From Gigantopelta aegis (lineage: Eukaryota; Mollusca; Gastropoda; Neomphalida; Peltospiridae), in contig NC_054704.1 of the NCBI RefSeq assembly GCF_016097555.1, positions 75,538,118-75,602,117 on the forward strand: 64,000 nucleotides of DNA, in the 5' to 3' direction. Below the pieces are notes generated by a model, which was not told where the DNA came from, made no database searches, and was given only the letters and a program-made list of their open reading frames with translations. Both the position numbers and the translations under genes were made by a program. This document shows positions 50,401 to 59,400 of this stretch, in pieces. The first letter of the stretch is position 1; each line of letters starts with the position of its first letter.

Positions 50401-53400
50401 TATTTTACTATGTCTTTTATTATTAATGAAAAATGTGGTCATTTTCTGGTATTATGAAATAAAATTTGTTGTTTGTTCTTCAACTGCATAACAGAGTTTT
50501 GTTTCTAGTGATATTTTGTGTGTGTTTGTGTTGTTGTTGTTTTTTTGTTTTTTTTGGGGGGAGGGGGTTGAGGCAGGGATGTTTTTTTGTGTTTTCATAC
50601 ATACCCTGACATCTTAACTTTGTGGGGAGGGTGGGACGTAGCCCAGTGATAAAGCATTCACTTGATACCCAGTCAGTCTAGGATCGATCCGTGTCAGTGG
50701 GCCTATTGGGCTATGTCTCGTTCCAGCCAGGGCACTACGACTGGTATATCAGAGGCTGTGGTATGAGTTATCCTGTCTGAAAGGGTGCATATAAAAGACC
50801 CCTTGCTACTAATGGAAAAATGTAGCGGGTTTCCTCTCTAAGACTGTCGAAATTACCAAATGTTTGACATCCAATAGCCGATGATTAATAAATCAGTGTG
50901 CTCTAGTGGTGTCATTAAACAAATAAACTTTAACTGAACCTATCACATTAGGGGAAGAGTGCCATAGATTCAGAAGTCAGGTTAAATATTCAATCAAACA
51001 AAGAGGAAATTATCCACATTTTCTAAAAATGTTGATGTATTCAGAGCTGTTAACACAGAATTTGTCATTAGTCATGTTTACCTTGATTATTTTCAGGGCT
51101 GTTCCTTTTGGACCAGATCAGCTGCTACTAAGAGGAGCCATTCTTAAAAATACAAATTGGATATTTGGTAGGATACCTTATGTAGTTATTCATTTTTAAA
51201 TTTAAAAGTTTAGTATTATATCATATATATATTTTTGGTGCAAACATTTTGAATGATTGAGGAATGGGGTTGTGGAAGGTGGATAGCTTAGGTTTAAAAC
51301 TCAAAGATTAGATATGATATTATCCAATGTTCTGTATTACTGAGTTCTTAATGAATAAGTGATTGGTTCTGTTTGACACAGTTTCAAATGGTGTTTTTGT
51401 AGGTGTGGTGGTTTACACCGGACATCAGACAAAGCTGATGCTGAACTCCACAACGACGCCACTCAAACGATCCAACGTGGATAAAATGACAAATACACAG
51501 GTAATGTTTTAACACCACTCAAATTATTGAACTTGAGGAGAAATGACAAATACATAGGCAGGGTTTCTGCCAGAGGGTACGGAGGGTAAAGTTATGAACC
51601 CTAAAATCCTGGAAATTAATGGATACATTTGTAATAATTTTTTAGAATGATTAAAGTGAGAGAACTACTGTTTAAAATTTGTCAAAGTACAAGAAATGCA
51701 GTGTCCAATTTCAAAAGATTTCAAGTCCATAACTACTTAGTAGGGTCACTTACGGTCTGTTTTGTTTTTATGAGACTCCCTCAAATTCTTTTCTGGCAGA
51801 AAGCCTGATAGGTAATGTTTCAACAATATCACTTAAAACATCTGAATGGAAAAAAAACAAAGGGATTTCTATCAGGGACAAAAATAGTATTGCTCTCATC
51901 TGGTTTGCTTGTACCTTTCTGAATGGTTGAATAATGGTTTATCGCTGTGTGTGTGTGTGTGTGTGTGTGTTTCAGATTCTCTTGTTTGTCACTGTGTTTG
52001 TGTTTGTTTCAGATTCTCTTGTTTGTCACTGTGTTTGTGTGTGTTTCAAATTCTCTTCTTTGTTTGACACTGTGTTTGTGTGTTTCAGATTCTCCTCTTG
52101 TTTCACACTGTGTTTGTGTGTGTTTTAAATTCTCCTCTTGTTTGTCACTGCGTTTGTGTGTGTTTCAGATTCTCCTCTTGTTTGTCACTGTGTTTGTGTG
52201 TGTTTCAGATTCTCCTCTTGTTTGACACTGTCTGTGTGTGTTTTAGATTCTCCTCTTGTTTGTCACTGTGTTTGTGTGTGTCAGATTCTCCTCTTGTTTG
52301 ACACTGTGTTTGTGGACCGGCCTCGGTGGCGTCGTGGCAGGCCATCGGTCTACAGGCTGGTAGGTACTGGGTTCGGATCCCAGTCGAGGCATGGGATTTT
52401 TAATCCAGATACCGTCTCCAAACCCTGAGTGAGTGCTCCGCAAGGCTCAATGGGTAGGTGTAAACCACTTGCACCGACCAGTGATCCATAACTGGTTCAA
52501 CAAAGGCCATGGTTTGTGCTATCCTGCCTGTGGGAAGCGCAAATAAAAGATCCCTTGCTGCCAATCGGAAGAGTAGCCCATGTAATGGCGACAGCGGGTT
52601 TTCTCTCAAAATCTGTGTGGTCCTTAACCATATGTCTGACACCATATAACCGTAAATAAAATGTGTTGAGTGCGTCGTTAAATAAAACATTTCTTTCTTT
52701 CTGTGTTTGTGTGTGTTTTAGATTCTCCTCTTGTTTGTCACTGTGTTTGTGTGTGTTTCAGATTCTCCTCTTGTTTGACACTGTCTGTGTGTGTTTCAGA
52801 TTCTCCTCTTGTTTGACACTGTCTTTGTGTGTGTTTCAGATTCTTCTCTTGTTTGACACTGTGTTTGTGTGTGTTTCAGATTCTTCTCTTGTTTGACACT
52901 TTGTTTGTGTGTGTTTCAGATTCTTCTCTTGTTTGACACTGTCTTTGTGTGTTTCAGATTCTCCTCTTGTTTGATACTGTGTTTGTGTGTGTTTCAGATT
53001 CTCCTCTTGTTTGACACTGTGTTTGTGTGTGTTTCAGATTCTCCTCTTGTTTGACACTGTGTTTGTGTGTGTTTCAGATTCTCCTCTTGTTTGACACTGT
53101 GTTTGTGTGTTTTTCAGATTCTCCTCTTGTTTGTCACTGTGTGTGTGTGTGTGTGTGTGTTTCAAATTCTTTTCTTTGTTTGACACTGTGTTTGTGTGTT
53201 TTTCAGATTCTCCTCTTGTTTGTCACTGTGTGTGTGTGTGTTTCAAATTCTCTTCTTTGTTTGACACTGTGTTTGTGTGTGTTTTAGATTCTCCTCTTGT
53301 TTGTCACTGTGTGTGTGTATGTTTCAAATTCTCTTCTTTATTTGTGTGTGTTTCAGATTCTCCTCTTGTTTGACACAGTGTTTGTGTGTTTCAGATTCTC

Positions 53401-56400: not shown

Positions 56401-59400
56401 AGATTCTCCTCTTGTTTGTCACTGTGTGTGTGTGTGTCAGATTCTCCTCTTGTTTGACACTGTGTTTGTGTGTTTCAGGACACTGTGTTTGTGTGTGTTT
56501 CAGATTCTCCTCTTGTTTGACACTGTTTGTGTGTGTTTCAGATTCTCTTCTTTGTTTGACACTGTGTTTGTGTGTTTCAGATTCTCCTCTTGTTTGACAC
56601 TGTGTTTGTGTGTTTTTCAGATTCTCCTCTTGTTTGTCACTGTGTGTGTGTGTGTGTGTGTGTTTCAAATTCTTTTCTTTGTTTGACACTGTGTTTGTGT
56701 GTTTTTCAGATTCTCCTCTTGTTTGTCACTGTGTGTGTGTGTGTTTCAAATTCTCTTCTTTGTTTGACACTGTGTTTGTGTGTGTAGATTCTCCTCTTGT
56801 TTTCACTGTGTGTGTGATTCAAATTCTCTCTTGTTTGACACTGTGTGTGTGTTTCAGATTCTCCTCTTGTTTGACACTGTTGTGTGTGATTCTCCTCTTT
56901 TCAGATTCTCCTCTTGTTTGACACTGTGTTTGTGTGTTTCAGATTCTCCTCTTGTTTGACACTGTGTTTTTTGTGACTACATTTCAGATTCTCCTCTTGT
57001 TTGACACTGTGTTTGTGTGTTTCAGGACACTGTGTTTGTGTGTGTGTCAGATTCTCCTCTTGTTTGACACTGTTTGTGTGTGTTTCAGATTCTCCTCTTG
57101 TTTGACACTGTGTTTGTGTGTGTTTCAGATTCTCTTGTTTGACACTGTGTGTGTGTGTTTCAAATTCTCTTTGTTTGACACTGTGTTTGTGTGTTTCAGA
57201 TTCTCCTCTTGTTTGACACTGTGTTTGTGTGTTTCAGGACACTGTGTTTGTGTGTGTTTCAGATTCTCCTCTTGTTTGACACTGTTTGTGTGTGTTTCAG
57301 ATTCTCCTCTTGTTTCACACTGTGTTTGTGTATGTTTTAGATTCTCTTCTTTGTTTGACACTGTGTTTGTGTGTGTTTCAGATTCTCCTCTTGTTTGTCA
57401 CTGTGTTTGTGTGTGTTTCAGATTCTCCTCTTGTTTGACACTGTGTTTGTGTGTGTTTCAGATTCTCCTCTTGTTTGACACTGTGTTTGTGTGTGTTTCA
57501 GATTCTCCTCTTGTTTGTCATTCTCGTGGTGCTGTCACTGATAAGCACGGTCGCCAACACGATCTGGGTGAACCGACACAAGCCGAATGCCTGGTATCTT
57601 TTCTTCACAGGTAAGGCAAAACATTATTACTTGTGAATTGTTTCTCCTTTTTTGGCTCGCGTGCGACACATAATGGAAGTTATCAGCCATTCAGTATTTA
57701 AACACCAAATAGCCATAGTTTTAACATATAGTGAAGTTTCACTAAACAAATATTCCTTTTCTTTAAATATCAGTTTTTAACACATATGTACACAGTTATT
57801 AAAAGAAGATTATCTAACAGTACTGCGCATTTTGTTTTTAACCAATATTATGTGGGCAGTTATTAAAGTAAGATTACCTCACAGTATTTCTATGGGTGTT
57901 TTATTGGAACATATGTTTGAACTTGTGTATAATATGTAACGGTACGTGTGTGTTTTGTTTTTAGAACTTAAGTTTCATTAGTGAAATACTTGACATGTGT
58001 GTAATGCTCTACTGGATCTGCATCTGTTTGTTTTCACATCTTACTTACATATCTGACATTCAAAATCTGATGTATTTTTATGCTGGGGTGTCATTAAAAA
58101 TCAATTTTTCATGTCAGTGCATTTTCTTTTTAGAATTTACATTCACTGTGGTTGTGTATATGACTAGTGACATACATGTTTATAAATAACGAACTACACC
58201 TGTTTTTAGAATGTATATCCCACTGGTGATTTTAGAAGAAATACTAATGTATAAATAACCTATCTCTGCCTGTGTGTGTTGTTTTTAGAATGTATGTTTG
58301 ACTGGTGATTTGAGAAGAAATACTAATGTCTAAATAACCTATCTCTGCCTGTGTGTCTTGTTTTTAGAATGTATGTATGACTGGTGATTTTGAAATACTA
58401 ATGTAAATAACCTATCTCTGCCTGTGTGTCTTGTTTTTAGAATGTATGTATGACTGGTGATTTGAGAAGAAATACTAATGTGTAAATAACCTATCTCTGC
58501 CTGTGTGTCTTGTTTTTAGAATGTATGTATGACTGGTGATTTGAGAAGAAATACTAATGTGTAAATAATCTATCTCTGCCTGTGTGTCTTGTTTTTAGAA
58601 TGTATGTATGACTGGTGATTTGAGAAGAAATACTAATGTGTAAATAACCTATCTCTGCCTGTGTGTCTTGTTTTTAGAATGTATGTTTGACTGGTGATTT
58701 GAGAAGAAATACTAATGTGTAAATAACCTATCTCTGCCTGTGTGTCTTGTTTTTAGAATGTATGTTTGACTGGTGATTTTAGAAGAAATACTAATGTATA
58801 AATAACCTATTTCTGCCTGTGTGTCTTGTTTTTAGAATGTATGTTTGACTGGTGATTTGAGAAGAAATACTAATGTGTAAATAACCTATCTCTGCCTGTG
58901 TGTCTTGTTTTTAGAATGTATGTATGACTGGTGATTTTAGAGAAGTATAAAAATACTTGTTTTTAGAATGTATGTATGACTGGTGATTTGAGAAGAAATA
59001 CTAATGTGTAAATAACCTATCTCTGCCTGTGTGTCTTGTTTTTAGAATGTATGTATGACTGGTGATTTGAGAAGAAATACTAATGTGTAAATAACCTATC
59101 TCTGCCTGTGTGTCTTGTTTTTAGAATGTATTTGACTGGTGATTTGAGAAGAAATACCTGTGTAAATAATCTCTTGTTTTTAGAATGTATGTATGACTGG
59201 TGATTTGAGAAGAAATACTAATGTGTAAATAACCTATCTCTGCCTGTGTGTCTTGTTTTTAGAATGTATGTTGACTGGTGAATAGAAGAAATACTAATGT
59301 GTAAATAACCTATCTGCCTGTGTGTTTGTTTTTAGAAGTATGATGACTGGTGATTTTAGAAGAAATACTAATGTGTAAATAACCTATCTCTGCCTGTGTG

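Follow-up and report, generated by a model that had tools for sequence, protein, structure and literature searches.

Tandem repeats whose unit straddles a splice junction have been described in amphioxus as "mirages", in the genes for Adh3, the globins BflGb6 and BflGb9 and TnC, with similar repeats in PGBD5 (PMC3087553, PMC3902484). An array of a 40-nt unit in an intron of an ATP8A-type flippase gene of the gastropod Gigantopelta aegis is compared with them here. The gene lies on the + strand of a 64,000-nt stretch of the 1149-Mb genome (NC_054704.1, positions 75,538,118 to 75,602,117; the window, in whose numbering all positions are given), and at least 12 of its exons fall within the window. 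The array is probably an extreme neutral, junction-straddling minisatellite of the mirage kind and not a purpose-built system of decoy splice sites.

The likeness is close. In both cases the repeated unit takes in a splice junction together with bases of the exon, 5′ and 3′ boundaries are affected in several genes of one genome, and many units, though not all, keep their splice signals. The amphioxus mirages are reported not to interfere with regular splicing (PMC3087553, PMC3902484). In the ATP8A intron, tandem units hold the intron end together with the adjacent exon bases (51 exact 18-mers, 78 units), and both kinds of boundary are represented in the genome: there are acceptor arrays in ATP8A and donor arrays in RFC3 and in two sampled loci (L014 and L081). 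Judged by its sequence, the array thus falls under the structural definition of a mirage. The kind is already described, and what differs is scale and inserts. The ATP8A array has 64 decoys with an acceptor AG, compared with six and three units in two haplotypes of BflGb6; its unit is 40 nt long, against 10–72 bp in Adh3 and 150–160 bp in BflGb6; and elements have inserted into it.

Other systems appear to share fewer of these traits. Internal tandem repeats in segmentally duplicated human genes include minisatellites with units averaging 30 bp, some of which lie at an exon–intron boundary and may form novel introns; half of them change the coding sequence and exon-retained transcripts are common, whereas the ATP8A repeats stand on the intron side (PMC2812944). 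An intronic variable number tandem repeat of TERT, with a 38-bp unit, resembles the array in intronic position, unit length and copy number; the paper concerns TERT splicing (PMC11830802). In the available part of the report on earthworm metallothionein, the intronic minisatellites are not placed on splice junctions (PMC12783039). A search of the mollusc and oyster literature, which covered titles and the starts of abstracts, also for the listed papers on gastropod haemocyanin, found no report of exon-boundary repeats in a mollusc. No literature closer than that on amphioxus mirages and exon definition was found.

The flippase gene and the anatomy of the array

The joined sequence of 12 exons gives 377 residues that align end to end with residues 61–437 of ATP8A1 (6k7g_A; E 6.5e-168), which bears out the gene identity proposed in the initial annotation of the window. 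The exon that partners the array, numbered 11 in the initial annotation, is the ninth ATP8A exon placed in the window. The array-bearing intron before it (51501–57501) is 6.0 kb long, and the intron after it 3.1 kb. The features are as follows:

51403..51500, + strand: ATP8A exon (E_h) upstream of the array-bearing intron, phase 0 at its end
51943..52312, + strand: 40-nt array, segment 1 (repeat finding, unit count)
52700..53439, + strand: 40-nt array, segment 2 (repeat finding, unit count)
54445..55263, + strand: 40-nt array, segment 3 (repeat finding, unit count)
56270..57501, + strand: 40-nt array, segment 4, reaching the working acceptor (unit count, junction spacing)
57502..57610, + strand: ATP8A exon partnering the array, 109 nt long, whose first 16–19 nt recur in the array
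60731..60858, + strand: next ATP8A exon (E_j) (exon placement, ATP8A1 alignment)

Between 51943 and 57501, upstream of the working acceptor at 57502, there are 78 junction-type units in which AG or AA precedes ATTCT. The initial annotation had counted about 64 decoy copies of the acceptor; exactly 64 units carry AG (55 CAG, 9 TAG) and the remaining 14 carry AA, most of the latter with one common variant of the exon part. Each unit joins the intron end to the first exon bases, with an exon share of 16–19 nt where intact. The derivation first proposed, from the exon's own acceptor and first coding bases, is upheld by exact matches. The first 16 exon nt, ATTCTCCTCTTGTTTG, recur exactly 51 times upstream of the exon, 50 of these after AG, and the 18-mer AG+ATTCTCCTCTTGTTTG has 51 matches with the real acceptor included, compared with a mean of 0.00 in 100 shuffles. 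The string TTGTTTGTCA, which takes the exon match to 19 nt in full units, occurs 20 times including the exon, against 51 occurrences of TTGTTTGACA in the array region. The last four junctions (57382, 57422, 57462 and 57502) do lie 40 nt apart, as had been noted, and the last is the working acceptor. Tandem Repeats Finder likewise reports units of 38–40 nt across four stretches. The array had also been said to fill its intron. That description does not hold, as inserts at about 52313–52699, 53440–54444 and 55264–56269 interrupt it and the repeat makes up about 3.2 kb of the 6.0 kb, or about half, the remainder including the inserts.

The exon, rather than the array, is the likely source of the shared bases, because ATP8A1 has homologous residues at the start of this exon. 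Membership of a dispersed satellite family was considered and rejected: among the 36 matches listed by a genome DNA search, which skips simple repeats and very common words, strong matches lie at the array's own locus only, and those elsewhere are weak (68–75%). The retention of the acceptor AG was likewise rejected as a sign of selection: its G is kept in 64 of the 78 units (82%), inside the 72–100% range of the other columns examined.

Decoy acceptors and their consequences

On a simple heuristic score of the pyrimidine tract, 44 of the 64 AG decoys equal or exceed the real acceptor. A YTNAY motif lies 18–45 nt upstream of 46 of the 65 acceptors, the real one included; the TTGTTTGACA variant creates such a branch-point-like motif, the A of which lies about 24 nt ahead of the exon-like start of the next unit. 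As most of the decoys score equally or higher and most acceptors share the motif, the working site is without a clear sequence advantage of its own.

None of the 64 decoys keeps the frame open through the next three exons. The stop lies inside the retained repeat for 59 of them; for the other five, the nearest decoy included, it lies 242 nt past the normal junction. As predicted from the reading frames, the use of any decoy would ruin the protein. It had been supposed that every decoy shifts the frame. This is not literally so, because the added length is a multiple of three for 18 of the 64, but it is so in effect, with all 64 meeting a stop. The claim of a stop after one extra unit stands in part: the nearest decoy (−40) does lead to one, but in the second exon downstream and not inside the unit.

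The decoys could in principle act as a dosage device, diverting pre-mRNA to transcripts with early stops that are removed by nonsense-mediated decay, with the length of the array tuning the level of flippase. The stops behind all 64 decoys, their scores and the motif upstream of most of them are in keeping with such a device. However, stops are to be expected anyway, since successive units of about 40 nt fall in different frames and TGA is part of TTTGACAC, and the array tolerates two kinds of inserted element. Moreover, a second array, in the next intron, behaves alike:

58201..60730, + strand: 79-nt array, unit with TACTAAT and TGTTTTTAG followed after the junction by AA

Together with one further copy at 57956, this array places 34 extra acceptors ahead of the working one at 60731, and for each of the 34 a stop is met within the retained stretch. 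The exon origin of its unit is unprovable, because the exon share is only 2–3 nt. The amphioxus mirages, reported to splice regularly (PMC3087553, PMC3902484), also speak against the device. It is therefore considered very unlikely, and a dosage function for the array is unsupported by what can be read from the DNA.

Inserts within the array

Three inserts separate the four segments:

about 52313–52699, + strand: SINE-like insert with TGTGTTTGTG on both flanks, a string found in the array as well
53440..54444, strand not assigned: transposon-like block, copy 1, 1005 nt, bounded by CTCTT on each side and bearing short, imperfect terminal inverted repeats
55264..56269, strand not assigned: transposon-like block, copy 2, with 4 differences from copy 1 in 1006 columns

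The first is presumably a short interspersed element (SINE), a label given from its tRNA-like head as judged by eye. The first transposon-like block lies within an exon-derived copy. It was presumably inserted into that copy and later duplicated along with the array, the second copy coming either from a block duplication of the array or from an effect of assembly. As SINE-like and transposon-like elements interrupt the array, it is not tightly constrained. The AG decoys are distributed as 23 before the two blocks, 17 between them and 24 after. A longer duplicated stretch around the blocks is 93.5% alike across 1853 columns, 89 of which are gap columns; thus the array parts differ far more than the unique block.

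This bears on whether some of the copies are an artefact of assembly, with two haplotypes of one array, or a read path used repeatedly, joined in series. The two unique blocks (1005 and 1006 nt) differ in 4 of 1006 columns, as alleles might, and 17 AG decoys lie between them. The much greater divergence of the array parts in the same duplicated stretch points the other way, and neither the remaining segments nor the gene's further arrays depend on the duplicated block. A second locus for the exon was not found among the 36 matches listed. An artefact of this kind is highly improbable.

Origin of the array and choice of the acceptor

Under the neutral minisatellite reading, the observed anatomy would go back to a short tandem duplication across the acceptor and roughly 19 coding bases at the start of the exon. 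Such a duplication would have done no harm, since acceptor and exon both remained intact in the downstream copy. The unit may then have been multiplied by slippage, unequal exchange and a later block duplication, with transposable elements inserting along the way. The initial annotation had offered slippage as a neutral alternative, and the acceptor-side duplication profile described below fits it.

The working acceptor at 57502 may be picked because no other acceptor lies so near the 5′ splice site of the exon, under the exon definition that applies in long introns. The decoys are followed by only 16–19 exon nt, and the downstream 5′ splice site would favour the nearest acceptor. Reed and Maniatis reportedly found that, when splice sites are duplicated, the exon sequence that follows each of them decides between them. 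The nearest one or two decoys would be expected to be used to a slight extent, and the resulting mRNAs would be removed. One study reports that where introns are long, pairing favours the sites with the shortest distance across the exon (PMC9225289). The intron presents an extreme natural test of 3′ splice-site choice, with 64 near-identical acceptors set against one that differs mainly by the rest of the exon and the nearby 5′ splice site. In such genomes, gene annotation should reckon with numerous false splice sites of convincing appearance.

Junction repeats elsewhere in the genome

Further junctions were sampled at 74 loci (L009–L082) with myosin, kinesin and P-type ATPase exons, drawn from 218 matches listed; L001–L008, which represent the ATP8A array, were not included. 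A purpose-made score served to place the junctions; those below the cuts were dropped, which left 49 acceptors and 27 donors. A copy was taken to cross the junction if it held at least 6 exon nt and at least 8 intron nt with a score of at least 30. Of the 49 acceptors, one had such a copy in its own flank, and of the 27 donors, four did. Run against the flanks of other loci, these queries matched in 9 of 2352 acceptor and 1 of 702 donor comparisons, a background that is inflated because some sampled loci share a gene and overlap, and the reverse strand gave 0/49 and 0/27.

The five crossing copies, at heuristically placed junctions, belong to myosin (L011, L013, L014), kinesin (L044) and P-type ATPase (L081) loci. 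In L014 (1661–2300) a donor junction lies in an 80-nt unit present eight times, with the 53 nt aligned to the next copy identical. L081 is a donor array, L011 has repeats at the donor, and single decayed copies are seen at the acceptor of L013, where the AG is lost, and at the donor of L044. Two further loci, L036 and L038, were not counted, as their best acceptors scored 5.5 and 4.5, below the cut of 7; the array unit of L038 is probably not the real acceptor.

In the window, two further arrays are placed on junctions:

45425..45768, + strand: 61-nt array with ACAG followed after the junction by CAAATCTCCC, related to the acceptor of the ATP8A exon at 46041
15179..15376, + strand: 77-nt donor-side array of RFC3, in which the exon end and GTGAGT are repeated

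The 61-nt unit has a further copy at 45274–45326, and the RFC3 exon lies at 15124–15193. The initial annotation was right in deriving the unit from the exon, but its dilemma between a strong choice of the last site and a tuner of flippase level is not supported as anything peculiar to ATP8A, since junction copies are also found at other ATP8A junctions, in RFC3 and at the five sampled loci. Junction-straddling repeats may thus reach beyond amphioxus, as these cases suggest, and their recurrence is a sign that they are not rare in this genome.

The sampled profile on the acceptor side is level and then falls. The share of 40-nt windows with a nearby same-strand copy is 15–18% for starts from −1000 to −100, 10% at −60 to −40 and 4% at −32 to −8, and within the exon it is 0/49 at +1 to +40 and 0/361 deeper. 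This favours local duplication as a general process that selection halts at exons. A hotspot at the junction was rejected for the acceptor side on the same profile, as the share is lower in the last 60 nt.

Several results weigh against the neutral reading of the array as an outcome of such general duplication. On the donor side, the share climbs toward the exon from 2 of 459 windows far from it (0.4%) to 12 of 54 near it (about 20%), and the duplication enters the exon (3/27 at +1 to +40, 4/203 deeper). The gradient does not fit uniform duplication halted at the exon, which does not predict it. In the window, junctions were tested with a 55-nt query spanning the junction and 1450 nt of flank, against random positions from the whole window, intergenic sequence included, with both sides tested. 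Copies were found for 9 of 26 junctions. Random tests gave a copy in 68 of 400, a figure that becomes 16 of 340 once the four junction arrays are excluded; the reverse-strand background was 1/26 for junctions and 9/400 and 9/340 for random tests. Under the cuts of the sample, crossing copies are present at 4 of 13 acceptors and 2 of 13 donors of the window, and at 4 of 12 acceptors of ATP8A alone. By a nearly equal test the window is richer in acceptor copies than the sample (4/13 vs 1/49), with the reservation that it was picked for its repeats; for donors the figures are 2/13 and 4/27.

These results could be explained if splice junctions were mutational hotspots, at which duplication starts preferentially and from which introns lengthen outward. 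The donor gradient and the excess of window junctions over random tests outside the arrays (9/26 vs 16/340) agree with this. When the arrays are counted, however, the contrast shrinks to 9/26 against 68/400, and the acceptor side lacks any rise toward the junction. A smaller, earlier comparison found copies at 3 of 18 acceptors and 3 of 16 donors, but at 34 of 148 and 19 of 150 intron positions (7 and 2 on the reverse strand) and at 0 of 60 exon middles. It should also be noted that, because one copy at a junction is kept by selection, ancient copies can be recognised there for longer. A junction hotspot is accordingly regarded as quite unlikely.

The broader proposal that introns lengthen largely from their own junctions, by repeated short duplications across acceptors and donors that leave fossil or near-perfect sites while splicing uses only the copy beside the full exon, is unlikely as well. 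If it were true, ATP8A, where two introns in a row have a long acceptor array, would amount to a natural experiment in the competition of duplicated splice sites.

Minor copies in the window

Single copies near other ATP8A exons are weak and decayed:

48005..48047, + strand: weak decayed acceptor copy of the exon at 48184, score 35
48858..48916, + strand: weak decayed acceptor copy of the exon at 49416, score 40, with about 22 exon nt
51541..51566, + strand: weak decayed donor copy of the exon at 51403–51500, score 32

A partial junction copy near the exon at 61673 scores 33. Single copies scoring 32–40 are only modestly above background, because the reverse-strand control for single copies reached 29. 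At 43005–43251, close to the ATP8A exon at 43305 on its upstream side, there are about seven near-perfect units of 34 nt, without the acceptor of that exon.

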